DNA of 13,746 nucleotides from Methanospirillum hungatei. GTDB taxonomy: Archaea > Halobacteriota > Methanomicrobia > Methanomicrobiales > Methanospirillaceae. The stretch's first letter is position 1. Each line of letters starts with the position of its first letter. The position numbers and the translations under genes were made by a program. Positions 1,117 to 13,684 of this stretch are shown one piece after another. The stretch covers positions 1 to 13,746 of the forward strand of contig NZ_JAIWNS010000141.1 in NCBI RefSeq assembly GCF_020216685.1. The letters run 5' to 3'. The notes beneath the pieces were generated by a model. That model was given only the letters and a program-made list of their open reading frames with translations. It was not told the DNA's origin and searched no databases.

Positions 1117-2427
1117 ATGAATATTGAAGACCTTATCTATCTGATCCAATCCGGAGAATCAGAAACATTAGAGTTTAAAGAGACAGAAGGGAGACATTTT
1201 CATCATGAAATTGCTGCTTTTGCAAATTCAGAAGGTGGAACAATACTGGTTGGTGTATCAGACTCAGGGAAGATAATTGGAACACAGGTAAAAGAAGCGA
1301 TTGAGAAGATAACCAGTTCTATCCAGTCTATAATTCCTCCACCAAAGATACGAACACAGAAGATTTCTATAGATGGCAAAGATATCCTGGTTGTCACCGT
1401 AGATAAAAGCCCCACACTCTGCTCAATCGGAGGAGTGGTATATATCAGAGCTGGAACAGGAGTAAGACCACTCTCCCTCCAGGAGATAGTAATGCTCTCC
1501 TCAGAGATGGGGACTATCCATTGGGATGAGATACCCATGATCCCCAAAGAAGAGACCAGACCAGAATATGTCAGTTGGTTCTTTGAAAAAGTTGAAGAGA
1601 CACGGGGAAAGGCGATATCTGCAGAAAACCGGGAGCGGTACCTGATAAGTAGCGGAGCACAGAAGAATGAAAAACTTACAAACGCTGGAATTCTATTTTT
1701 TACAGATGCCACATTACATATTTCCTCTGCAAAAATTCGAAAAGTAGGAATGAGTGAAGACGGACCCCAGTGGAGTGAGGACTATGAAGGACCGGTATGG
1801 AAAGTCATTGATGAGGCATACAGCAGTATCATCCGGGATATAAAGAGGGTTGATATCGTATCCGGAACCAGAAGGATTAGATTAGAGGAATATCCTCCCC
1901 GGGCGATTCGGGAGGCATTAATTAACGCTGTTACTCACCGTAACTATACCATAAGTGCTGATGTGAAGATACTTGTGTATCCGGACCGGCTCGAGATAAA
2001 AAATCCGGGTTCTCTCATGCCGGGGGTAGATATCAAGGATCCTGAGCATATCCCCCGTAATCCATCACTATCCAACCTCTTATTTGACACAGGGTACATC
2101 GAGCGATATGGATATGGGATTATGATGATAGAAGAGGAAGTCCGTGCCCATCAGTTCTGTTCGGTAGAGTTTAAGGTATCCCCGGCATCGTTCACCGTTA
2201 TATTCAGGAAAGACTTCTCAAAAATCCTTGATGAGATAGACAACCAGATCCTGAAACTGGTTCAGGTACCTGCAAAGAGTGGAGATATTGCAGCAAGACT
2301 TGATCTCTCAAAGAATACGATACTCAAGAGGATCGAGAAACTTGAGAAACTTGGTCTTGTTGAAAAGAAGGGATCAGGTCCGAAGACATCGTACAGTGCT
2401 ACACATACTAAGGGGAGAGGGGGTTAA
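1117..2427 (+). CDS. COG2865-type AlbA_2/Schlafen ATP-binding transcriptional regulator in BREX locus
   Basis: 436 residues. The N-terminal AlbA_2 (divergent AAA-4) domain spans about residues 8-125, with the ESETLEFKE opening and AAFANSEGGTILVGV. A GHKL-like HATPase_c_4 region follows at about 240-350; REALINAVTHRNY contains the N-box Asn270, followed by RLEIKNPGSLMPG. A winged-helix domain covers about 365-430 (SGDIAARLDLSKNTILKRI). Family members are treated as ATP-binding transcriptional regulators, and genes of this class are common passengers between pglX and pglZ. The stop shares one base with the pglZ start (TAATG), so the two are probably co-translated. The 5' half is more AT-rich and uses different codons from pglX and pglZ, which suggests later insertion. 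I infer a role in controlling BREX or guarding it, perhaps through the repeats at 1032-1114. ATG 1117 is chosen because it starts immediately before the domain; no strong ribosome site is seen. Confidence 0.85.
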   Translation: MNIEDLIYLIQSGESETLEFKETEGRHFHHEIAAFANSEGGTILVGVSDSGKIIGTQVKEAIEKITSSIQSIIPPPKIRTQKISIDGKDILVVTVDKSPTLCSIGGVVYIRAGTGVRPLSLQEIVMLSSEMGTIHWDEIPMIPKEETRPEYVSWFFEKVEETRGKAISAENRERYLISSGAQKNEKLTNAGILFFTDATLHISSAKIRKVGMSEDGPQWSEDYEGPVWKVIDEAYSSIIRDIKRVDIVSGTRRIRLEEYPPRAIREALINAVTHRNYTISADVKILVYPDRLEIKNPGSLMPGVDIKDPEHIPRNPSLSNLLFDTGYIERYGYGIMMIEEEVRAHQFCSVEFKVSPASFTVIFRKDFSKILDEIDNQILKLVQVPAKSGDIAARLDLSKNTILKRIEKLEKLGLVEKKGSGPKTSYSATHTKGRGG

Positions 2428-5045
2428 TGGCAATCCTGAGTATTGAGAAGACAACCGCTGCAATCCTGGAAAAATTCAGAAACCTCTCCGAATTTGAGAC
2501 CAGGAAGATAGTCTTCTGGTACGACGGGGAACAGACCGCCGGGGAAGAGGACCTGACCCATATCAGAGAGGCGCTCTCCGAACAGGGCATTGCAATGCAT
2601 ATCCTGGACGGGAACTCCTTTGCCACCAAAAAACTCCTTGAACATGACGACACCACATCGTCCTATCTCATCTACTCAGCCCAGCCTGAACCAGACTATG
2701 AGAAGAACTGGCTCCTCGACATCCAGCTCTACTCCGAGAGGTTTGAGAACAGCCGGATATCAGACATCAAGGCAGAGATAGGGATCGAGGGATATGACCT
2801 TGACATCTTCCTTGGAGCACACCTGAAATTCTTCTCAAACAAGAGACGAGCTCTTGCGTTTAAGAAATGGTATGAACCATCCTGGAGAGAAGACGACTGT
2901 ATCAGAGGAATGCTCGCCGTCCTCTCAGGAGCTGCTGCCCCTGACATCCGTGAGATAACAAAGTCGGTCCTGATGGACTCACTTCATGAAGAAGACAATA
3001 CCATCTGGGAGCAGATAACAAAGTTTGACCTCACCGGACGATTCTGGGAGATAGTCCGGAAACAGTTCGGCTACTACCAGGAGAGCCCGACCCTGAAAAA
3101 ATTCTTCGTAAGCCTTCTCATCACCCATATCGACCGTCATACAACCCTCCCGCTCGGTCATCTCGAACAGTTCGTCAATACAAAACGACAGGGGAATGAA
3201 TGTGAGTTGTTCATCTCCGGATGGATGCATCACGCCCGTGATTCGGCCAGGTTTGACAGGTACTGCGCAGACCTATTAGCAGAAAACGATAAGAAACTTG
3301 AGAAAGAACTGACCTCCATCGTGCATAATCAACCCGTAGAATCCTACCTACAACCCGAAGCACCTGACATCTTTGACAAGAGCATCATCAGGAAGATAGT
3401 ATCAACCCTCATCGATGGCGGGCAGGACTATGACATGTACCTCTCCTGGATAGAGGCGAGGAAGACAAAACACTCCTACCAAAAGTTTGAGGACATTTAC
3501 ACAGCCCTGGTATCTGCAATAGAACTCATCCGGTTTGCACAGCAGTGTGAAGAAGAGAAAACCATCGCACGTACCCCTGCTGAACTCTTCCGGGCCTATA
3601 CCGACCGATACTACCTCCTTGATTATCAGTACAGGAAATTCTACACCTCCTATGACAAAACCAGTGATACACAGATCCTAAAGACCGGTATCAGGGAGAT
3701 GGTCGAGCGGCAGTACCTCCATATCACCCAGAAGATCCAGATGAAATGGAGTGACCTTATATCAGCCCAAGGCCTGACCACCTGGGGAGTTGAACTCATA
3801 CCATCCCAGGAAGAGTTCTATACCGCCCATGTGGATGCGATCATACAAAGAAACGACCGTGATAAGGTTGCGGTCATCATCTCCGATGCCATGCGGTACG
3901 AGGTAGCGGTTGAACTCAAAGAAACCCTCAACAGGAACATGAACGGAACCAGTGAACTCAGCTCAATGGCCGGATGCCTCCCGTCATATACAAAACTGGG
4001 GATGGCAGCACTCCTCCCTCATGAACGCCTGACATTTCAAAAGGACCACATCCTCGTTGATGGCATGAACTCTGACGGCATTGAAAACAGGGAAAAAATC
4101 CTCATGAAAAAGGAAGCTGAGTCTATAGCCATCCGGTTCAAAGAACTCCGGGACCTCAAAAGGGATGACGCACGGGAGAGAATCAGAGGAAAACGGGTTA
4201 TTTACATCTATCACAACAAGATAGATGACACCGGAGACAACCTGCAATCCGAAGATGAGGTGTTCAAAGCCGCTGATGAAACGATCCATGAGATAGAAGA
4301 CATGGTAAACCGCCTGGTCAATTCACTCAACATCAGTAACATCTTCATCACGGCAGATCATGGATTTCTCTATACCCGTAATGCCCTTGAAGAACTCGAT
4401 GTCATAGACGTCTCCGGATTTGATAAAGACCGGTTCATCTCCTCAAACAAACGGTTCATCATCAGCAGTGAAAAGACCGACCTTATGAACACCCATCGTT
4501 TCCTCATGGATTACATCGTCGATACACAAAACCCGCTCTATATCTACACCCCCTCTGCAGATCTCAGGTTTAAAATGAGCGGAGGTGGACGAAATTTTGT
4601 CCATGGCGGATTGTCATTCCAGGAGATAGCAATCCCGGTCCTCCTCTATAACCATAAGACACTGACCGACCTTGATAAAAAAGGGATCGAGTATGGAAAG
4701 GTTGGTATCATCCTCATCGGACAGACCAGGAAGATAACGAGCAATCCGTTTAAAATTACCCTATTCCAGACCGAAAACGTAACGGAGAAACGAGGAATCC
4801 TCAAATGCAGGATTGCCCTCTATGATAACACCGGAGCCAGAGTCAGCGATGAGAAGGTTATTCTGGCCGACAAAACCACAGATGATCCAAACCAGAGAAA
4901 AATTTCTATCACCCTGACGATGAACAGTACCATTCAAAATGGAATATACACCCTGAAAGCCATAGATGAAGATGTAAAGGCAACATTCAGGGATGTCCTT
5001 GAGATACCCGTTGAAGTTGATATTTTAATAACCGATGATTTTTAA
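2427..5045 (+). CDS. pglZ: BREX type 1 phosphatase-like protein PglZ
   Basis: 872 residues, the usual length for BREX-1 PglZ. The N-terminal half (1-450) is the family-specific helical region. The alkaline-phosphatase-superfamily domain spans roughly 475-760, with metal-site motifs VIISDAMRYE (Asp487) and ITADHGF (Asp644, His645), and PSYTKLGMAALLP with Thr522 as a possible nucleophile-position residue. PglZ is a core BREX component required with PglX and BrxC for exclusion of phage; its exact substrate is not settled. A purine-rich ribosome site (AGGGGAGAGGGGG, 2411-2423) lies just before the start, and the ATG overlaps the previous stop by one base. Codons strongly favour C-ending Leu/Ile/Thr, like the pglX remnant and brxL, marking these as one inherited block. 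The frame is intact, with no visible lesion. Confidence 0.95.
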   Translation: MAILSIEKTTAAILEKFRNLSEFETRKIVFWYDGEQTAGEEDLTHIREALSEQGIAMHILDGNSFATKKLLEHDDTTSSYLIYSAQPEPDYEKNWLLDIQLYSERFENSRISDIKAEIGIEGYDLDIFLGAHLKFFSNKRRALAFKKWYEPSWREDDCIRGMLAVLSGAAAPDIREITKSVLMDSLHEEDNTIWEQITKFDLTGRFWEIVRKQFGYYQESPTLKKFFVSLLITHIDRHTTLPLGHLEQFVNTKRQGNECELFISGWMHHARDSARFDRYCADLLAENDKKLEKELTSIVHNQPVESYLQPEAPDIFDKSIIRKIVSTLIDGGQDYDMYLSWIEARKTKHSYQKFEDIYTALVSAIELIRFAQQCEEEKTIARTPAELFRAYTDRYYLLDYQYRKFYTSYDKTSDTQILKTGIREMVERQYLHITQKIQMKWSDLISAQGLTTWGVELIPSQEEFYTAHVDAIIQRNDRDKVAVIISDAMRYEVAVELKETLNRNMNGTSELSSMAGCLPSYTKLGMAALLPHERLTFQKDHILVDGMNSDGIENREKILMKKEAESIAIRFKELRDLKRDDARERIRGKRVIYIYHNKIDDTGDNLQSEDEVFKAADETIHEIEDMVNRLVNSLNISNIFITADHGFLYTRNALEELDVIDVSGFDKDRFISSNKRFIISSEKTDLMNTHRFLMDYIVDTQNPLYIYTPSADLRFKMSGGGRNFVHGGLSFQEIAIPVLLYNHKTLTDLDKKGIEYGKVGIILIGQTRKITSNPFKITLFQTENVTEKRGILKCRIALYDNTGARVSDEKVILADKTTDDPNQRKISITLTMNSTIQNGIYTLKAIDEDVKATFRDVLEIPVEVDILITDDF

Positions 5046-5057
5046 ACGTGATGAGAC

Positions 5058-7121
5058 ATGACTGACCCTACCTCCGGACCACTACCAGAACAGGGCAATG
5101 ACCCTGATACAGATACAAAGCTCAACACCTGGTTTCCCGGCAGGGTGGTCAGAAAAGACCTCACCATAAAACTCAAAGGGTCAAATAACGTCCCCGTATA
5201 TGTTCTTGAATACCTGCTTGGATCCCATTGTGCCACCGATGATGAATCACTCATACAAGAAGGAGTAGCAAAAGTAAAACGGATTCTGGCAGACAACTAT
5301 GTACGGCCAGATGAGGCTGAACTCATTAAATCCAGGATCAGGGAGACCGGGTATTACACCGTCATCGATAAAATAACCGTCCGGCTGAATGAAAAGAGGG
5401 ATGTGTATGAGGCAGAGTTCTCATCACTTGGGATCAAGGAGATCGAGATAGAACCTGAGACGGTACGTAAATACGAAAAATTACTCGGGGGTGGGATATG
5501 GTGCATCGTCAAGATGGAATACCTCACCGATGGGTCGCGATCACCTTTTGTTATCGCAAGTCTCAAGCCGATTCAGATCCCGAACATGGATATCAATGAA
5601 CTCATCGACCGAAGAAAATACTTCACCAAAGATGAATGGATCGATATCCTGCTCCGGACCGTCGGGATGGAACCTGACACCCTTGACTATACGGTAAAAT
5701 GGCACCTCCTCCTCCGGCTTGTTCCCCTGGTTGAGAATAATTACAACCTCTGTGAACTTGGGCCGCGAAGCACCGGGAAATCGCACGTATACAAGGAGAT
5801 ATCACCAAATTCAATCCTCATCTCCGGTGGGCAGACCACCGTTGCAAACCTCTTTTACAACCTGAGCCTGAGGCAGGTCGGACTTGTGGGGCTGTGGGAT
5901 GTCGTAGCCTTTGATGAAGTGGCCGGAATCAGGTTTAAGGACAAGGATGGTATCCAGATACTCAAGGATTACATGGCATCCGGTTCATTTGCACGGGGAA
6001 AAGACCAGATCAATGCACATGCATCCATTGTATTTGTGGGAAACGTCAATGAAAGTATCCAGTCATTACTGAAAACCGCCCATCTCTTTGCTCCCTTCCC
6101 TGAGGCCATGAACAATGACAGCGCCTTTTTTGACCGGATACACTACTATCTCCCCGGTTGGGAAGTTCCCAAATTCAGACCCGAACATTTCACCATGCGG
6201 TATGGATTTATCGTTGATTACCTGGCCGAATACCTCCGTGAGATGAGGAAACGATCCTTTAGTGACACCATATTCAAGTACTTCAGATTTGGCAGTAACC
6301 TGAACCAGCGTGATACTATTGCCATTAAGAAAACCTGCTCCGGCCTGTTAAAACTCATCTATCCGGATGATAGTGCCACAAAAGAAGAGGTCCGTGAGAT
6401 ACTGGAATATGCACTTATCGGTAGAAGAAGGGTCAAAGAACAACTCAAAAAGATCGGAGGGATTGAGTTTTACGATGTGAACTTCTCCTATTTCGATAAC
6501 GAAGAAGGGACCGAGCATTTCGTCACCGTCCCGGAGAGCGGGGGGAGCAAATTAATCCCCGAAGGATTGACCAAACCAGGTCAGGTATACTCGGTAAGTC
6601 GAAATGAAGAGGGGAAAATAGGAGTATACAAGTTTGAACTCCAGGTTATACCAGGCTCTGGAAAATATGAAAAATCAGGTCTTGGATCAAATATGAAAGC
6701 AAAGGAATCAGTCCAGACCGCTTTTCATTATTTTAAAGCCAATGCAAAGTCTGTAAGCCAGAGCATCTCCACCAAGGAACGGGATTATCAGCTCCATGTC
6801 CAGGATCTCATGGGTGTAGGAATGACAGAAGAACTGGCTCTTCCGGCCTTTATCAGTCTCTGTTCCGGTGCTCTTGCAAAACCGGTTCATGAGTCGATTG
6901 TCATTCTCGGGACTTTCACCATCGGTGGATCAATAAGCATCATTGATAATCTTGCAGATCTCCTTCAGATTGCCCTTGATGCCGGGGCAAAAAAAGTCCT
7001 GATACCAATCTCATCAGCAGGGAAGATCTCGGTTGTACCCCCTGACCTCTTTAGTAAATTTCAGATATCCTTCTATGAAGATCCGATAGATGCGGTGTAT
7101 AAATCGATTGTCTTGTCATAA
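5058..7121 (+). CDS. brxL: BREX AAA+ / Lon-like protein BrxL
   Basis: 687 residues, typical for BrxL. Domains in order: an N-terminal region to about 190; an AAA+ ATPase core with Walker A GPRSTGKS (235-242, Lys241) and Walker B VVAFDEVAG (Asp286, Glu287); and a Lon-protease-like C-terminus from about 575 (QDLMGVGM to the end, including LGTFTIGG and AGAKKVLIP). In Lon the catalytic Ser lies in GPSAG and the Lys in GGLKEK; here the aligned segments read GMTEEL and DNLADLL, so both catalytic residues appear to be missing and proteolysis is unlikely. Published work on BrxL describes a DNA-binding, MCM-like assembly. It lies 12 bases after pglZ in the same operon, with a weak GATGAG ribosome site. 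It ends the BREX block; the next gene-like sequence is convergent. Confidence 0.94.
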   Translation: MTDPTSGPLPEQGNDPDTDTKLNTWFPGRVVRKDLTIKLKGSNNVPVYVLEYLLGSHCATDDESLIQEGVAKVKRILADNYVRPDEAELIKSRIRETGYYTVIDKITVRLNEKRDVYEAEFSSLGIKEIEIEPETVRKYEKLLGGGIWCIVKMEYLTDGSRSPFVIASLKPIQIPNMDINELIDRRKYFTKDEWIDILLRTVGMEPDTLDYTVKWHLLLRLVPLVENNYNLCELGPRSTGKSHVYKEISPNSILISGGQTTVANLFYNLSLRQVGLVGLWDVVAFDEVAGIRFKDKDGIQILKDYMASGSFARGKDQINAHASIVFVGNVNESIQSLLKTAHLFAPFPEAMNNDSAFFDRIHYYLPGWEVPKFRPEHFTMRYGFIVDYLAEYLREMRKRSFSDTIFKYFRFGSNLNQRDTIAIKKTCSGLLKLIYPDDSATKEEVREILEYALIGRRRVKEQLKKIGGIEFYDVNFSYFDNEEGTEHFVTVPESGGSKLIPEGLTKPGQVYSVSRNEEGKIGVYKFELQVIPGSGKYEKSGLGSNMKAKESVQTAFHYFKANAKSVSQSISTKERDYQLHVQDLMGVGMTEELALPAFISLCSGALAKPVHESIVILGTFTIGGSISIIDNLADLLQIALDAGAKKVLIPISSAGKISVVPPDLFSKFQISFYEDPIDAVYKSIVLS

Positions 7122-7296: not shown

Positions 7297-7575
7297 TCAC
7301 ATCGCCACTATTCTGCTCATAAGCAGACTGGCAAACCAGTCCACAAATCCGGAACAAACTGTCAACGGCGTGAAGAAGTTCCCTTTCCTCTTCCCCGAAT
7401 CTTTCGCGAAATTGCTGATCAGGTACTCATAGGCATCACCCAGGAGATCGTCACCATCCGCCCGGTTTGAACTGAAATCAAGAGCAGGGTTCTCATATAT
7501 CGTGATGAGCTTTGTGAGCCGGTCTACCATCTCCTTCCCTCTCCCCATTTTATCATCCGAGTTAAAATCATCCGG
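7297..7575 (-). pseudogene. hsdM: Type I restriction methyltransferase HsdM, internal fragment
   Basis: Read on the - strand, the segment carries hallmark HsdM sequence: GKEMVDRLTKLI, ENPALDFSSNRADGDD, LLGDAYEYLI, then SGKRKGNFFTP, the motif just before the SAM-binding part of a type I N6-adenine methyltransferase. Homology continues upstream of the first ATG (7546-7548) to a stop at 7576-7578, so the true reading frame began further upstream. After FFTP (near 7375) the sequence leaves the family and reaches a stop at 7297-7299. The SAM-binding and NPPF motifs are missing, as are hsdS and hsdR. This is a two-sided fragment of roughly 90 codons from a protein of 500 or more, and cannot be active. 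Confidence 0.8.
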
Positions 7576-7723: not shown

Positions 7724-7948
7724 ATGGAAGTCGGTAAGGGAGCAGATAATGGACACATCTTCATCCCTTTACCATTAAGAAAAAAATATAATCTTAATGA
7801 TGGGGACACGATAATTTTTGAAGAACGAGAAGGTGGTCTTTTACTCAAACCTCGCTCGAAATTATCTGTGCTCATGGGTGCATATACTGAAGACGGACTA
7901 TTAGACGATCTGGAAAAATTAAGAGAACAGGAACGTTCTTTGGTATGA
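7724..7948 (+). CDS. vapB: AbrB/MazE-type antitoxin, VapB-like
   Basis: 74 residues. The N-terminal 48 form a SpoVT-AbrB swapped-hairpin DNA-binding domain: GHIFIPLPLRKKYNLNDGDTI followed by FEEREGGLLLKP. The C-terminal tail (ending LRERERSLV-like, about residues 50-74) is the usual toxin-wrapping segment. It overlaps the toxin start by four bases (ATGA, 7945-7948), the classic coupled arrangement. Such antitoxins bind their own promoter and neutralise the partner PIN nuclease. The antitoxin looks intact although the toxin is broken, so it may survive as an orphan that can neutralise related toxins or repress related promoters. No clear ribosome site precedes the ATG. Confidence 0.82.
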   Translation: MEVGKGADNGHIFIPLPLRKKYNLNDGDTIIFEEREGGLLLKPRSKLSVLMGAYTEDGLLDDLEKLREQERSLV

Positions 7949-8332
7949 ATTATCTTTTTGACACACATGCACTCATCACGTTATTTCATAACGAACCAGG
8001 TTATGAAATAGTTCAATCTATCTTTGAGGAGAGAGAATGGAAAGGCAGATGGATATATATGAACCGTTACACTAACCGAATTGAAGTACCTCTATTTTAA
8101 AAGATTTGGAGAAGATGAGTCAGAAAAACGTTTACATCCTATCCTCACATCCAATCTTACAATAATTCCGGTAACAATTTCTATTGCCCTGTCGGCTGGA
8201 TCCATCAAAAAAACAGGTATTTCGCTGGCACATGCCATTATTGCGTCAACGGCACGGGAAATACGGGCTGTAGTTGTAACTGGTGACATTCATTTCTCTG
8301 TAATGGGGATTGAGATGAAAAAATACAGGTGA
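7945..8332 (+). pseudogene. vapC: VapC PIN-domain toxin, frameshifted and missing an active-site acid
   Basis: PIN toxins are Mg-dependent ribonucleases with four conserved acidic residues. The start reads MNYLFDTHALI (first Asp at residue 6), and after codon 38 the frame runs off to a TAA at 8098-8100. The rest lies one frame over: TVTLTELKYLYF (second acid), ISLAHAIIAST, then VVTGDIHF (fourth acid), stopping at 8330-8332. Dropping one A at 8062-8063 joins both parts as IYMTVTLTELKYL and gives a 128-residue VapC, the normal size. Where the family has LADAIIA, this gene has LAHAIIA (CAT at 8231-8233), so the third acidic residue is His. It is therefore doubly disabled, unless the extra A is a sequencing error, in which case it is still a probable catalytic variant. 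Confidence 0.85.
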
Positions 8333-8534: not shown

Positions 8535-8696
8535 ATGGGGGCAAAATTACAGATTATTGTTGAAGGCCTGACTGAGCAATTATTTGTTCAGCAAATTCTC
8601 ATCCCTCACCATATATACTCTTTTTCATATTCCTTAATAATTGTAATTCCACCTTCTTCTTTCTCTAAATTAGCATATCGATTATCTCTTGTATGA
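8535..8696 (+). pseudogene. DUF4276 protein, N-terminal remnant
   Basis: Begins MGAKLQIIVEGLTEQLFVQQILIPH, which aligns with the start of the DUF4276 gene at 13010 (MSTHLHFIVEGQTERQF and EIIIPH). VEGxTE is the conserved Toprim-like opening of this family. After IPH, near 8615, similarity ends and the frame runs through AT-rich sequence to a TGA at 8694-8696, 54 residues in total against about 220. It follows the ATPase remnant by five bases, the same gene order as the better preserved pair. Non-functional by truncation. Confidence 0.72.
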
Positions 8697-8697
8697 A

Positions 8698-9363
8698 CGA
8701 GCGAATATAATGAGAGGTGCTGACTTCTCTGAGATCAGGCGGAAGGATGTCTGGAGTATTCCGCTCACAATCTTCGGGAGGTCATCATCAACGCCCTTGT
8801 CCATGCAGATTATTCACAGATAGGAGCACCGATCCGGGTATCGTTCTTTGATGACCGGATTGGGGTTGAAAATCCTGGTATCCTCCTCCCCGGCATGACC
8901 ATTGAGGAGGTAAAAGCTGGGGTGTCAAAGATCCGGGACCCTCGTGATTACCCGGGTGTTTCGGGAATGAGATCTGATTGAGCAGTGGGGGAGCGGGTTT
9001 CGCCGGATAATTCAAGAAGCTTCGAATTTGGGGCTTTCCGAGCCGGTGATCGAGGAGATCGGGATGCGGGTCCCGGTGACGGTTTTTCTTGCCGAGAGTC
9101 AGGAGATACACATGACCGAATAAGTAACCGAACAAGTACCCGAACAAGTAATTCGTCTTGTTCATTGTCTGAAGGATACACCTTTGAGTGTAAAAGAAGC
9201 GATGAAATGTATTGGTTTGAACCATCGTCCTTCGTTCATCTATGGCTATCTGAAACCTGCCATTGATGCAGGATATGTTGAAATGACTCAGCCTGATTCA
9301 CCAAATAATCCGAGGCAGAGATACCGGCTGACGAGGAAAGGGAATTTCTATTGTTTCAGCTGA
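8698..9363 (+). pseudogene. Second COG2865-type ATP-binding regulator, multiply broken
   Basis: Pieces of the C-terminal half of an AlbA/COG2865 regulator lie in shifting frames. The segment near 8710-8770 reads RGADFSEIRRKDVWSIPLTI; a frameshift near 8771 leads to LREVIINALVHADYSQ (the ATP-binding N-box region), then FFDDRIGVENPGILLPGM. Another frameshift near 8945 leads to RVFRE, a TGA (8968-8970), then DLIEQWGSGFRRI, EPVIEEIGMRV, a TAA (9121-9123), and a C-terminal helix-turn-helix region ending in PRQRYRLTRKG before the TGA at 9361-9363. The N-terminal AlbA_2 domain is missing. It is not a recent copy of the gene at 1117: the C-terminus is of a different subtype with a TEQV-repeat linker. 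Confidence 0.85.
9115..9150 (+). repeat. Three 12-bp tandem units coding a TEQV-type linker
   Basis: ACCGAATAAGTA, ACCGAACAAGTA and CCCGAACAAGTA follow one another and would encode TEQV-TEQV-PEQV. The first unit carries TAA where the others have CAA, a single C-to-T change that makes a stop. This linker is typical before the C-terminal HTH of one COG2865 subgroup. Confidence 0.85.
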
Positions 9364-9400: not shown

Positions 9401-9443
9401 ACATCCAATGTAGAGTGTACTTAACAATATTCATATTCTTTCC

Positions 9444-10229
9444 ATGCTTAATAACTATACCATGGATAATCGGCTGCCTCATCCACCTCTCCAGGAAGTG
9501 ATATTTGAATTAAAATGGAGATTGGATCCAATTCAGCCCGGGATTTTGAAGGATCCACATTATCAAATTCTTATTGGCACCCTTTATGGAAAATTACGTG
9601 AATTAGGGTACTCATTTCATGAACCCCTGCAAACATCAAATATTCCGGATGAAATGGTTCCTTATATCGTTCAACATCGCTTCAGACCCTCTCAGGAACA
9701 ATGGCCTCTTGTTCAGATAGGTTCCGGGATTTTGACTCTTAATGACACGATTCATTATTCATGGCCTGATTTTTCAGGCCGGATCCGGGATCTGGTAGAA
9801 AATTTTTTTTATGTCTATCCTGAACTTGATTCATTACAGATCTTAGAGATGAACCTTCGATATATCGATGCGGTTACTATACCTGAAGGAACTGACCCTA
9901 AAGAGTTTCTAAAACAGTCTGTGGGGGCTGATATTGTAATGCCTGAAGCATTGTTTATGAATACCGGGGTAATGAACAGGCCGGTTGGATTTGATATATA
10001 TCAGACATTCCCTCATGAAGGAGATGGAACGTTAGTAATGATCCGATATATCTATGGGCATGGGACACCACCGGGCAAATTTACTTGGGAAACTACCGTT
10101 CACATTGATGGAGAGACAGTTCCAAAAACGCCTGAGAAGATCATGCAATGGTGTAATCAGGCCCATGATCTTACGCATGACTGGTTTTTGAAAATGTGTT
10201 CAGATGAATTGATGGAGTCATTTAAATGA
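9444..10229 (+). CDS. TIGR04255 family protein
   Basis: 261 residues, the usual length for this sporadically distributed family, recognised by the N-terminal PPLQEVIFEL motif and the LRYIDAV stretch in the middle. No catalytic motif, signal peptide or membrane segment is seen. The biochemical role of the family is unknown to me; its patchy distribution and its neighbours here suggest a defence or toxin-antitoxin-like function. A second ATG at 9462 (MDNRLPHPPLQEV) would put the motif nearer the start, as in many relatives, and is a reasonable alternative start; neither has a clear ribosome site. The stop overlaps the next start by four bases (ATGA), indicating translational coupling. Intact, and lower in GC than the BREX block. 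Confidence 0.82.
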   Translation: MLNNYTMDNRLPHPPLQEVIFELKWRLDPIQPGILKDPHYQILIGTLYGKLRELGYSFHEPLQTSNIPDEMVPYIVQHRFRPSQEQWPLVQIGSGILTLNDTIHYSWPDFSGRIRDLVENFFYVYPELDSLQILEMNLRYIDAVTIPEGTDPKEFLKQSVGADIVMPEALFMNTGVMNRPVGFDIYQTFPHEGDGTLVMIRYIYGHGTPPGKFTWETTVHIDGETVPKTPEKIMQWCNQAHDLTHDWFLKMCSDELMESFK

Positions 10230-10759
10230 CACCTGCAATACTTCACGAGACTATAGTACATGACTATTATCCTCAACCCTGGAGAGAATATAGTTCAGTT
10301 TTTTCGAAAATTTCAATGCAAAGACCAGAAGCATTTGAAGGAAAGCGAGATGCACCGATAGAAATTACCTCTTTTTTTGGGTATTCTTCAATTACGTCAA
10401 TAAAAGTTACTAGTGGCACTCATAGTACATCCTATATTCAATCCATCATTAATAGAGTGAAAACAGATTCCAGACCAAAGATAATGTATTTCTTTCAGAA
10501 AAATCCTGAAATGATTAGTGGGGTTGATGAAGTAATTCGGAGAATTGATAGAATTTTCCCTCATAACACTCAATATTTTTTAGAGACAAGAAAGGATCCT
10601 GATTCGGGGATTGATTACATCAGACTGTGTGTCAGGCTTTCTCATTACCCTGATGATTTTTTTGATATCGCTTTTGAGATTGAGGAGTCTTGTTCTTACC
10701 TTTTTTCAGGAAGTAAAAGCAAATTTCTTCTAACTACTGACTTTATGCCTTCACAGTAA
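10226..10759 (+). CDS. Hypothetical protein, middle gene of the TIGR04255-HEPN operon
   Basis: 177 residues; I do not recognise a family. It is mostly polar with mixed alpha/beta character: an N-terminal part with IVHDYYPQPWREYSSVF, a central segment RPKIMYFFQKNPEM, and a C-terminal part rich in Phe, Asp and Glu (DDFFDIAFEIEE). No signal peptide, membrane helix or Walker motif is visible. It overlaps the TIGR04255 gene by four bases and ends one base before the HEPN gene, so the three are surely one transcript. By analogy with three-gene toxin modules it could be an adaptor or antitoxin, but this is inference from position only. Confidence 0.75.
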   Translation: MTPAILHETIVHDYYPQPWREYSSVFSKISMQRPEAFEGKRDAPIEITSFFGYSSITSIKVTSGTHSTSYIQSIINRVKTDSRPKIMYFFQKNPEMISGVDEVIRRIDRIFPHNTQYFLETRKDPDSGIDYIRLCVRLSHYPDDFFDIAFEIEESCSYLFSGSKSKFLLTTDFMPSQ

Positions 10760-10760
10760 T

Positions 10761-11147
10761 ATGCAAACTCAATCCTCCTCATTTGACTGGGTAGATTATA
10801 TTGAATTAGCGAAGAAACTGCAACAAAATCCTATTCCAAATGCTCTATATCATACTGCACTCTATCGGGCCATTGTAAGCAGAGCATACTATGGTGCATT
10901 TATGTATGCACGAAGGAGGGCTGAAAGAATCAAAGGAGTTTTTTCAGGTGTTAATATCCACGAACAAGTGATTGAGTATTATATTCATTCTGAATCAAAA
11001 AATCACCGAAAAGCAGGAACATTTCTTAAAGTATTGAAGGATAAACGGATTGAATGCGACTATTTTGATAACCTTACGGAAGATCCAAAAAGGATGGCGG
11101 ATATATCAATAAAACTCGCAGAAAATATAATTAATCTCATTCTGTAA
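10761..11147 (+). CDS. HEPN-like domain protein
   Basis: 128 residues, almost entirely helical. The segment AIVSRAYYGAFMYARRRAE matches the SRAYYAAF signature of the HEPN superfamily (helix 2 region of COG1895/COG2250-like proteins), followed by NIHEQVIEYYI and a C-terminal helix. Many HEPN proteins are ribonuclease toxins with an Rx4-6H motif; I do not see a clean one here (the nearest is Arg-x10-His, RIKGVFSGVNIH), so it may be a non-catalytic or divergent member. The start follows the previous stop by a single base. The frame is intact, ending at 11145-11147. The partner genes suggest a role in defence or dormancy; the HEPN call is by motif only. Confidence 0.7.
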   Translation: MQTQSSSFDWVDYIELAKKLQQNPIPNALYHTALYRAIVSRAYYGAFMYARRRAERIKGVFSGVNIHEQVIEYYIHSESKNHRKAGTFLKVLKDKRIECDYFDNLTEDPKRMADISIKLAENIINLIL

Positions 11148-11188
11148 CTGAAATGCACTTCCAAACCTCATACCGTCCTAAGTTTAGG

Positions 11189-11562: not shown

Positions 11563-11899
11563 AAGATGCAATCATTCGTGATGAAGACCTCAGGCAAAAA
11601 CTCATCCTCATCCTGAACGGAGAGTCTCCGAGAGTCTCCCTATGACACCTATGTGAGATGGAAACCACTCCATGAACAGCCGATTGGATGGGAACCTGAT
11701 TTAAACGATGGGGTTTGTATGAATATCAGGCCATTTGTTACTGCCGGAGTGCTCATAAGTCAGCCAAAGATAAACGGATTAAGGACCAGGGGGAAGATCC
11801 GGTACCGAACTATCCGGGACCACTGACCGGCAAAATGATCTGCATTTTACGCTTGATAAGAAGAGGAAAGCACGGGAGGAGGCAGGGAAAAAAGGATGA
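11563..11899 (+). pseudogene. Adenine-specific DNA methyltransferase (COG1002/YeeA-like), C-terminal remnant
   Basis: The C-terminal part of a large N6-adenine methyltransferase of the COG1002 type is spread over three frames: AIIRDEDLRQKLILILNGESP, then YDTYVRWKPLHEQPIGWEPD with NDGVCMNIRPFVTAGVL, then QGEDPVPNYPG, and finally DRQNDLHFTLDKKRKAREEA ending in a TGA at 11897-11899. The first shift is an exact 10-bp tandem duplication (11620-11639). Two further shifts lie near 11780 and 11822. The SAM-binding and catalytic half is absent. This is a different family from PglX at the window start. The stop overlaps the ATPase start by four bases, so the ATPase was once coupled to it. Exact subfamily (restriction-linked, DISARM or other) cannot be told from the tail. 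Confidence 0.8.
11620..11639 (+). repeat. 10-bp tandem duplication causing a frameshift
   Basis: GAGAGTCTCC occurs twice in direct succession (11620-11629, 11630-11639). Removing one copy gives NGESPYDTYVRWKP in a single uninterrupted frame across the junction, so the duplication is the lesion. Confidence 0.9.
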
Positions 11900-13005
11900 A
11901 ATTAAAAAATATCTGCATCAAAGGATTTAAATCACTGGAGGATGTTGATCTTCCCCTTAACCACCTGACGGTATGTATCGGTGCAAATGGAACAGGAAAA
12001 TCAAACCTTCTCTCCGCTTTTTATTTTCTACACAGGATAGCAGAAGGCCGGTTTTCATATGCAATAGCCAAGGCAGGTGGTGCACATAGTCTTCTCTATA
12101 ACGGTCCTGATTATACCAAAAAAATTGAATTCACTCTCACCTTTGAAGACTATGTGTACCATGCTGCCTGTGAGCCTTCGAGTGATGATTCTCTCGTGTT
12201 TATTCAGGAGGATATTAAAAGATCTCAAACAGTTCCTGGAGGAGTCAGGGAAGTCTCACATGCTAACAATCCACCAGGGTACCGGGAAAGTGTCCTCATC
12301 AGGTGGAATTATGATCTCCTTGACGGAAAAAAGATAAAAAAATTCCTTTCAGACGCCTCTGTGTATCATTTCCATGACACCAGTGACACCTCTGGTGCAC
12401 GCCTTATTGGACCAATATCTGATAATTTCTCCCTGAAACCTGATGGCTCCAATCTCGCAGCATACCTGTACCTTATCATGAACCAGTACCCCAAACATTT
12501 TGAGCAGATAATAGAGACCATTCGGCTTCTAGCCCCATTTTTTCATACATTCATACTTCGTCCCACAGCCGAGAACCAGGAGATGATCCGCCTTTCATGG
12601 CAGGAAGTAGGAAGTGATACTGTCTTCCAGGGACATCAAATGTCAGATGGTCTCCTTCGGTTTACTTTACTCGTAACCCTTCTCATGCAACCGGTAGAGT
12701 TGCGACCTTCGATAATAATGATTGATGAACCTGAATTAGGATTGCACCCGGTTGCCATTGATATCCTCGCTGGACTTATGAAAAGTGCTTCTGCACAGAA
12801 TCAGGTTCTTATCACGACTCAATCTCCATTACTCCTCAACCATTTCACTCTTGATGAAATACGAATTATAGAGAGAAAACAAGGGTATTCTACCATCCGA
12901 ACCCCGGATCAGGAAGGCCTCAGGGAATGGCTGGAGGATTATAGTCCTGCAGAATTATGGCAAAATGGCATATTGGGTGGCGATCCATCAGTCATCCTGC
13001 GGTGA
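11896..13005 (+). CDS. AAA_21-type ABC/SMC-like ATPase of an ATPase-DUF4276 pair
   Basis: 369 residues, full length for the family. It opens with ICIKGFKSLEDVDLPLN, then Walker A GANGTGKS (29-36, Lys35). After a central insert come LSWQEVGSD, QMSDGLLRF (signature-like segment) and Walker B IIMIDEPELGLHP (Asp277, Glu278). The switch position usually held by His (STHSP) is Gln309 in TTQSP, as is common in this subgroup. The C-terminus WLEDYSPAELWQNGILGG is shared with the remnant at 8354-8530. Such OLD/RecF-like ATPases act as sensors or motors coupled to a Toprim-type nuclease in several defence pairs. A good ribosome site, GGGAGGAGG (11874-11882), lies upstream; the start overlaps the methylase stop (ATGA). 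DUF4276 follows after four bases. Frame intact. Confidence 0.9.
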   Translation: MKLKNICIKGFKSLEDVDLPLNHLTVCIGANGTGKSNLLSAFYFLHRIAEGRFSYAIAKAGGAHSLLYNGPDYTKKIEFTLTFEDYVYHAACEPSSDDSLVFIQEDIKRSQTVPGGVREVSHANNPPGYRESVLIRWNYDLLDGKKIKKFLSDASVYHFHDTSDTSGARLIGPISDNFSLKPDGSNLAAYLYLIMNQYPKHFEQIIETIRLLAPFFHTFILRPTAENQEMIRLSWQEVGSDTVFQGHQMSDGLLRFTLLVTLLMQPVELRPSIIMIDEPELGLHPVAIDILAGLMKSASAQNQVLITTQSPLLLNHFTLDEIRIIERKQGYSTIRTPDQEGLREWLEDYSPAELWQNGILGGDPSVILR

Positions 13006-13009
13006 ATTC

Positions 13010-13684
13010 ATGAGTACTCATCTCCACTTTATTGTCGAAGGTCAGACTGAAAGACAATTTATTCATGAGATCATCATTCCTCATCTCTATTCATGTGGGA
13101 TTCAGGGAATTGTATAAATTATTACCACATCAATCCAATCAAAGACCTTCCGGGGTGGTGTTGGAACCTATACACAAATACAAAAAAATATTAGAAAAGG
13201 GCTGTGCCGTAAGGATTGTTATGTCACTACCTTGTTCGATCTCTATGGTCTCCCTCATGATACGCCAGGAAATCAAAAGATAAACGATGCAATGAGTGGG
13301 GAAGAGAAAGTGAACGTAATAGAAGCATCAATCAGTGGAGATATATCTAATCGACGGTTTATTCCTCATATACAACTCTATGAATACGAAACCCTCCTAT
13401 TTTCTGATATTTATGCAATCGACAATGTAATCGGCATTCATTGTTCATCACAAATTGAAAAGCTGCAGGAGATTATCAGAAGAGCTGGTGAACCCGAGAA
13501 AATTAATGATAATCCAAATACAGCTCCATCGAAAAGACTACATCATTTGTACCCATCGTACCAGAAAAATCCCCATAATATTTTAATAATCAAAAAAATC
13601 CCTCTTTCACATATTCGTGCTCATTGCCCTCATTTCAATGACTGGATAACAAAATTAGAGACATTGCCCCCGCTTGGAGAATGA
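13010..13684 (+). pseudogene. DUF4276 (Toprim-like) protein interrupted by one in-frame TAA
   Basis: One frame runs 225 codons from ATG 13010 to TGA 13682-13684, broken only by TAA at codon 36 (13115-13117). Before the stop it reads HFIVEGQTERQF and EIIIPHLYSCGIQGIV; after it, TFRGGVGTYTQIQKNI, YVTTLFDLYGLPHDTPG, FIPHIQLYEYETLLFSD, and a NTAPSKRLHHLYPSYQK segment, all standard DUF4276 landmarks in the right order and at normal total length. Downstream residues are well preserved, so the lesion is recent or a base-call error. An internal ATG at 13232 would remove the VEGQTE motif and is unlikely to give a working protein. DUF4276 proteins are Toprim-related and are often paired with AAA_21 ATPases, presumably as the nuclease or effector. 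The stop overlaps the next start by four bases. Confidence 0.85.

Follow-up and report, generated by a model that had tools for sequence, protein, structure and literature searches.

What might a compact set of three genes do beside phage-defence genes in the methanogen Methanospirillum hungatei? The window, the whole stretch of DNA that was analysed, is one complete contig of 13,746 bases (NZ_JAIWNS010000141.1; G000:C165 in our numbering of genomes and contigs) from a 3.0-Mb assembly. The cassette in question consists of three intact open reading frames, all on the + strand: g1 (9462..10229), a TIGR04255-family protein of 255 amino acids; g2 (10226..10759), a protein of 177 amino acids without a family match; and g3 (10761..11147), a HEPN protein of 128 amino acids. 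The initial annotation described a 4-base overlap and a 1-base gap between them, and both are there: g2 starts at 10226 while g1 ends at 10229, and g2 ends at 10759 while g3 starts at 10761. An ATG at 9444 offers an alternative upstream start for g1, but the sequence makes 9462 the more likely start, because in the sister copy of genome G198 a stop closes the reading frame shortly before the corresponding ATG. We think it probable that the cassette is a defence-linked, exchangeable module in which g3 is a split-site HEPN RNase that is restrained by g1 and g2, released on infection, and then cuts RNA.

The same three genes recur as neighbours in distant genomes. A search with a single g2 sequence found the gene in 12 of the 232 genomes of the class, and a profile search found it in 18 of the 392 genomes of a phylum sample. 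A pattern scan of a species-genome collection, which used a narrower alignment, gave 69 candidate stretches, 22 of which were confirmed; they lie in methanogens, Desulfobacterota, Blastocatellia, Chloroflexi, Stahlbacteria, Coatesbacteria, Zixiibacteriota and Acidobacteriota. With duplicates removed there are 47 distinct g2 loci, of which 33 have the full order g1-g2-g3, 10 have g2-g3 only and 4 have g2 alone, and the g2-g3 pair is present in 43. Because the full order is repeated in 33 of 47 loci, across archaea and several bacterial phyla, the neighbourhood is conserved beyond chance. Three of those 33 loci (L065, L073 and L111) came solely from a search with g1, and the searches with g2 by themselves yield 30 of 44. 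The spacing between g1 and g2 lies between -46 and +6 in 31 of 32 full cassettes. One further full cassette is found on the Thermus brockianus plasmid pTB1, with genes for a DNA methylase, VapC and Cas6 nearby. Plasmid records gave one match to the g2 of locus L012 and none to the divergent g2 of L030; phage records searched with the L012 g2 gave none, and 96 pattern matches in IMG/VR viral contigs yielded no confirmed g2. The nearest named g3 proteins come from Methanospirillum metagenome-assembled genomes (MAGs), and one close g2 relative carries the label of a Bacteroidetes MAG, which may reflect misbinning. One genome, G121, has four g2 copies (L004/L032, L016/L125, L034 and L035), one of them in a full cassette; the other three are without g1, and two of these are also without g3.

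In two cases the cassette has been exchanged as a block. A block of 1,757 bases (9421..11177, + strand) is 94.8% identical to L124:8612-10368 in genome G198, with different DNA on both flanks, and the shared stretch begins 41 bases before g1 and ends 30 bases after g3. A second pair, L089 and L090, shares a 94.1% identical block that begins 36 or 117 bases before g1 (the choice of start differs) and ends 6 bases after g3, and the similarity of L089 to L096 likewise stops at g3. In G198 the cassette interrupts an AlbA/RecG-like gene inside a bacteriophage exclusion (BREX) locus: upstream are BrxC and an Eco57I/N6 methylase piece, which is PglX by position, and downstream is DNA 87.7% identical to the PglZ gene of the window. 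Insert-free relatives of the interrupted gene are found in L130, from the window's own genome, and in L134. They align with the part upstream of the G198 cassette over residues 1 to 83-88 and with the downstream part from residue 175 or 184, so that about 90 residues of the G198 gene are missing. Across 32 full cassettes the distances computed for the three genes are correlated (r 0.83-0.84), and for each pair of genes none of 9999 permutations reached as high a value. This is expected of a unit that is inherited or moved together, and the Mantel test is compatible with plain vertical descent too.

The link to defence was quantified for one family, HSDR_N. Of 25 cassette genomes, 7 have an HSDR_N match no more than 2.5 kb from the cassette, 8 have one within 5 kb and 11 within 10 kb. 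By chance 0.14, 0.27 and 0.54 genomes would be expected, and the enrichment at 5 kb has P 9e-11. The expectation was computed from genome size and gene number with the genomes treated as independent, and the 25 genomes were taken from 33 with a g2 match, G187, G016 and six genomes of a divergent group having been left out beforehand. Some of the HSDR_N matches are Eco57I-type enzymes and not HsdR, as in L091. This enrichment, one of the checks proposed in the initial annotation, supports its reading of the genes as a toxin or abortive-infection module.

The family of g3 is clear by profile, and its active site is unusual. The window's own g3 scores 21.6 bits against the HEPN family PF05168 (E 2.5e-4), just below the Pfam cut-off of 22, and some of its relatives pass that cut-off, the Thermus copy with 27.4 bits. 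Among 35 aligned members, 17 match PF05168 at E ≤ 0.01 (best 1.4e-8), and a g3 profile finds HEPN chains in the PDB at E 1.2e-7 to 5.9e-5, so the HEPN assignment made from the helix motif stands. Seven residues (R36, R41, Y43, H67, R96, D100 and Y101) are each invariant in 42 of 42 distinct g3 sequences, and the 35-member alignment together with the Thermus and L100 copies shows the same invariant residues. The motif position reads RxxxDY, with D100 where a histidine is expected, in all 42. Because the canonical RX4-6H is absent, a point missed by the initial annotation, the active site needs another reading. Such a reading has been described. In HEPN-T proteins of the AF0298 type the histidine of RX4-6H is replaced and an alternative conserved histidine lies in an insert between helices 2 and 3 (PMC3710099), and g3 fits this definition with D in place of H, the arginine kept and a conserved histidine on the N-terminal side (H67, R96 and D100). 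The g3 profile also matches the HEPN protein of retron-Kva2 (36ht_I) at E 5.9e-5. In the printed alignment, with numbers counted by hand, H67 aligns with H64 of the retron protein and A42-Y43-Y44 with Y40-Y42. In retron-Kva2 the changes H64A, R122A and Y40-42A each abolish defence against phage T5, and its authors say that the system acts via tRNA degradation (PMC13405049, a preprint).

The two partner proteins are less familiar. The assignment of g1 to TIGR04255 is secure, at 154.8 bits against an NCBIfam cut-off of 30 and over positions 1-252 of the 252-position model, and g2 is as unrecognised as the annotation had it: neither Pfam nor NCBIfam has a match that comes near a cut-off, and PADLOC has no match. 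Structures were predicted for both. The predicted g1 has a two-repeat alpha/beta fold that Foldseek tentatively likens to the TATA-binding protein (TBP), and the predicted g2 has a confident mixed alpha/beta domain at residues 66-177, preceded by residues 1-65 with a predicted local distance difference test score (pLDDT) below 50. A KH type II fold (alpha-beta-beta-alpha-alpha-beta) is a tentative candidate for the C-terminal part of g2. Against the PDB, the g1 profile found nothing below E 2.3 and the g2 profile found only unconvincing matches to viral fusion proteins and G proteins (best E 0.0015). TIGR04255 has uses outside the cassette, because full TIGR04255 proteins and shorter relatives of 172-213 amino acids stand alone in many genomes (L037-L064, mostly of genus g27, and L112-L123), and among 58 distinct long g1 proteins 25 have neither g2 nor g3 in the flank examined, which covered 1.5-3 kb or ran to the end of the contig. 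In a tree the g1 proteins of cassettes are not set off from the solo ones as a single clade, so a single origin of the cassette g1 is unsupported.

The simplest account, modelled on retron-Kva2 and PrrC, makes g3 an effector RNase which g1 and g2 hold or trigger. In an uninfected cell g1 and g2 would keep g3 inactive, most likely in a complex. Infection, or the defeat of a restriction, BREX or CRISPR system nearby, would be the trigger: g1, g2 or both would sense the invader and release g3, which would cut cellular RNA, with tRNA as the first candidate, and growth would stop. The active site of g3 would be split between H67 in the helix 2-3 insert and R96 where helix 3 ends; Y43/Y44 would lie close to the substrate, and g3 would probably act as a dimer. 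We infer the RNase activity, the restraint, the trigger and the RNA target, as well as the toxic or protective character of the module, from these comparisons. Since g2 and g3 persist together where g1 is absent or replaced, the loci suggest that g2 is the direct partner of g3 and that g1 is the variable, sensing part.

A more specific version of this account, which we offer tentatively, is a tripartite immune complex with the logic of a retron and no reverse transcriptase. In it the TBP-like TIGR04255 saddle protein would sense nucleic acid or an invader protein, g2 would be the adaptor, g3 would be a non-canonical HEPN tRNase, and the first gene would be exchangeable. Four of the ten g2-g3 loci (L026, L027, L028 and L030) have a different conserved gene, of 204-228 amino acids, ahead of g2, and because of this replacement g2 and the HEPN protein may form a core that accepts different sensors in archaea and bacteria. 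Scans of the L026 and L028 copies found no family for this gene. A comparison with TIGR04255, made with four sequences only, gave no support for a remote membership (hhalign probability 0.3%, E 0.18).

Several observations weigh against the idea of an exchangeable defence RNase. Fourteen of the 25 genomes lack an HSDR_N match within 10 kb, and the 11 that have one belong to 6 of 12 genera, the genomes being related to one another. By eye, 10 of 26 longer loci show no defence gene (L089, L090, L093, L098-L101, L103, L105 and L127), with flanks that are almost all unscanned; one L101 flank protein that was scanned had no Pfam match. In 5 of 8 distinct locus pairs compared, similarity extends beyond the unit on at least one side, and in the pairs L092/L094 and L094/L095 it continues through HsdR. 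Ten of the 47 loci have g2-g3 without TIGR04255, so g1 is not strictly required. RX4-6H is missing from every one of the 42 aligned g3 sequences, and HEPN domains that lack it are in some cases thought to be non-catalytic and possibly RNA binders (PMC3710099). Finally, the Kva2 alignment spans profile positions 12-85 only and ends before R122, so the equation of R96 with R122 is inferred and not established.

The most likely alternative is a toxin-antitoxin module, with g3 as the toxin and g2, with or without g1, as the antitoxin, which would reside in islands without protecting against viruses; defence islands gather mobile stabilising modules. The g2-g3 pairing is the most stable one: of the 43 loci that have it, ten lack g1 or have another gene in its place. 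The module is small and patchy, as its presence in so few genomes of the phylum sample shows (18 of 392), the Thermus plasmid copy adjoins a VapC gene, and pairs of a minimal nucleotidyltransferase (MNT) and a HEPN protein behave in this way (PMC2701414). Against this reading, a third gene, g1, is kept in 33 of 47 loci across archaea and bacteria, with distances that covary with those of g2 and g3; the association with HSDR_N is strong, and no DNA-binding domain was recognised in g2 by Pfam or in its predicted structure. On balance we consider a pure toxin-antitoxin role unlikely.

Less probable still is that g3 is a non-catalytic, RNA-binding HEPN protein and that the module serves the restriction or BREX machinery next to it, by tuning or assembling it, without killing the cell. 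The absent RX4-6H and the RNA binding suggested for HEPN domains that lack the motif (PMC3710099) would fit, as would the position of the cassette between HsdS and HsdR in L092 and in G086 (L023), and beside HsdR, plus an HsdS recognised by eye, in L088. An RNA-binding scaffold need not keep H67 and R96, however, and both are invariant in 42 of 42 sequences; a similar residue pattern is required for defence by retron-Kva2; and the cassette accompanies many unrelated defence systems, or none that was recognised. A last alternative, in which the cassette would be a small restriction system with g1 as its divergent restriction endonuclease, rests on sub-threshold matches to RE_SinI (E 0.021) and PADLOC REase_II (E 0.048), and was rejected as highly improbable because these matches are weak and the predicted fold disagrees.

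The preferred reading, a restrained HEPN RNase with two partners, has relatives among known systems and coincides with none of them. Type IX retrons such as retron-Kva2 have, like g3, a HEPN protein without RX4-6H in a multi-protein locus with one HEPN toxin, and the PADLOC model HEPN_IX matches 15 of 35 g3 proteins at E ≤ 0.01. The retron partners are a reverse transcriptase and a winged-helix protein, whereas those of g3 are TIGR04255 and g2; none of the ten window reading frames scanned is a reverse transcriptase, and by profile g1 and g2 are neither that nor winged-helix proteins. A type IX retron also has a structured ncRNA, and Rfam gave no match in the window. The AF0298-type HEPN-T proteins (PF05168, pdb 2hsb) share with g3 the D-for-H change and the conserved histidine of the helix 2-3 insert, they cluster with restriction-modification operons as the cassette also does, and 2hsb is matched by the g3 profile at E 0.12; they are listed as standalone or MNT-fused (PMC3710099), whereas g3 is partnered by g1 and g2. 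MNT-HEPN pairs resemble the cassette as small mobile operons with a PF05168-type HEPN protein but differ in that the cassette has two unrelated, adjacent partner genes, TIGR04255 and g2, and no nucleotidyltransferase was among the profile matches of the window in Pfam, NCBIfam and PADLOC. PrrC with EcoprrI, and also RloC, have a HEPN RNase that accompanies type I restriction genes as a fallback defence (PMC3710099); PrrC is an ABC ATPase fused to HEPN in one protein, whereas g3 is a standalone HEPN protein in a cassette without an ATPase partner. As for g1, it is a full-length member of the sporadic NCBIfam family TIGR04255, unlike whose many standalone members it stands in a cassette.

Catalogues of defence systems contain little that resembles the whole. 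In PADLOC-DB 2023, neither g1 (from the window, L012 and L025) nor g2 (from these and L026) had a convincing match, the best E being 0.014 among the g1 and g2 proteins tested, and the candidate PDC-M05B models match up to 4 of 35 g3 proteins at E ≤ 0.01. In the literature searched, which lacks most subscription journals, TIGR04255 was not found by name, and the papers listed gave no description of a three-gene HEPN module, of a tripartite HEPN toxin-antitoxin system or of a HEPN protein with SRAYYAAF. In the libraries searched, g2 has no name. A 2026 survey of BREX describes auxiliary HEPN genes near BREX that are typically standalone and in some cases MNT-fused (PMC12839542). DefensePredictor added 31 validated systems, four with HEPN domains, and the cassette may be among them; no TIGR0 name appears in its main text (PMC13092281). 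We rate the cassette as a HEPN-effector module with two undescribed partners.

The defence genes beside individual cassettes are varied. Neighbouring proteins were picked by eye for scanning against Pfam, which identified HsdM, HsdS and HsdR in L092, HsdS in L023, HsdR in L088, DUF499 and DUF1156 in L125, Cas5 and Cas7 in L086, an MjaI-type restriction-modification pair (endonuclease and methyltransferase) in L104, a ResIII helicase in L106 and Mrr in L107. The neighbour in L091 is the Eco57I-type enzyme, and L124 has the BrxC and PglX-like methylase piece of G198. BREX genes were seen solely with the window and G198 copies, and the cassette is not part of the BREX core set, as others adjoin type I restriction-modification, Cas or other genes (L086, L092, L104 and L107). 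Between HsdS and the cassette, L088 (1498-2328) and L092 (4222-5058) have an unassigned gene of 276-278 amino acids whose copies look related; the L092 copy has no Pfam match and carries RNESGH near its C-terminus, by eye a HEPN-like RX4H. In G197 the cassette has a RhuM-family gene some 5 kb upstream (L126:3834-4898).

In the window itself, the genes upstream of the cassette are a remnant of a type 1 BREX system: a broken or partial PglX C-terminus (275-937), an AlbA/Schlafen-like gene with both domains complete (1117-2427), PglZ (2427-5045) and BrxL (5058-7121). Because the window is an entire contig, the truncation of PglX may be an assembly edge. Next come a partial N6_Mtase piece on the - strand (7300-7548) and an AbrB/MazE-like antitoxin gene followed by a C-terminal PIN piece (7724-8332, the PIN part at 8081-8332), together a decayed toxin-antitoxin pair. 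Between these and the cassette, 8686..9345 on the + strand holds a remnant, in several frames, of an AlbA/RecG-like gene related to the one interrupted in G198. Downstream are an AAA_21/HEC-01A-like AAA ATPase gene (11896-13005) and a HEC-01B-like DUF4276 gene (13232-13684) whose frame lacks the first 60 profile positions. The initial annotation saw three undamaged genes with nearly everything around them broken; the cassette is indeed intact, and the rest was too strong, since the AlbA/Schlafen-like gene, PglZ, BrxL and the AAA gene are intact, all with near end-to-end profile matches.

The plasmid-borne Thermus copy and the methanogen copies are available for testing these ideas. If the proposed module is real, the widespread family TIGR04255 and g2 would each gain a first role, and the split H/R HEPN site, shown to be important in one retron, would extend to a module found in both archaea and bacteria.
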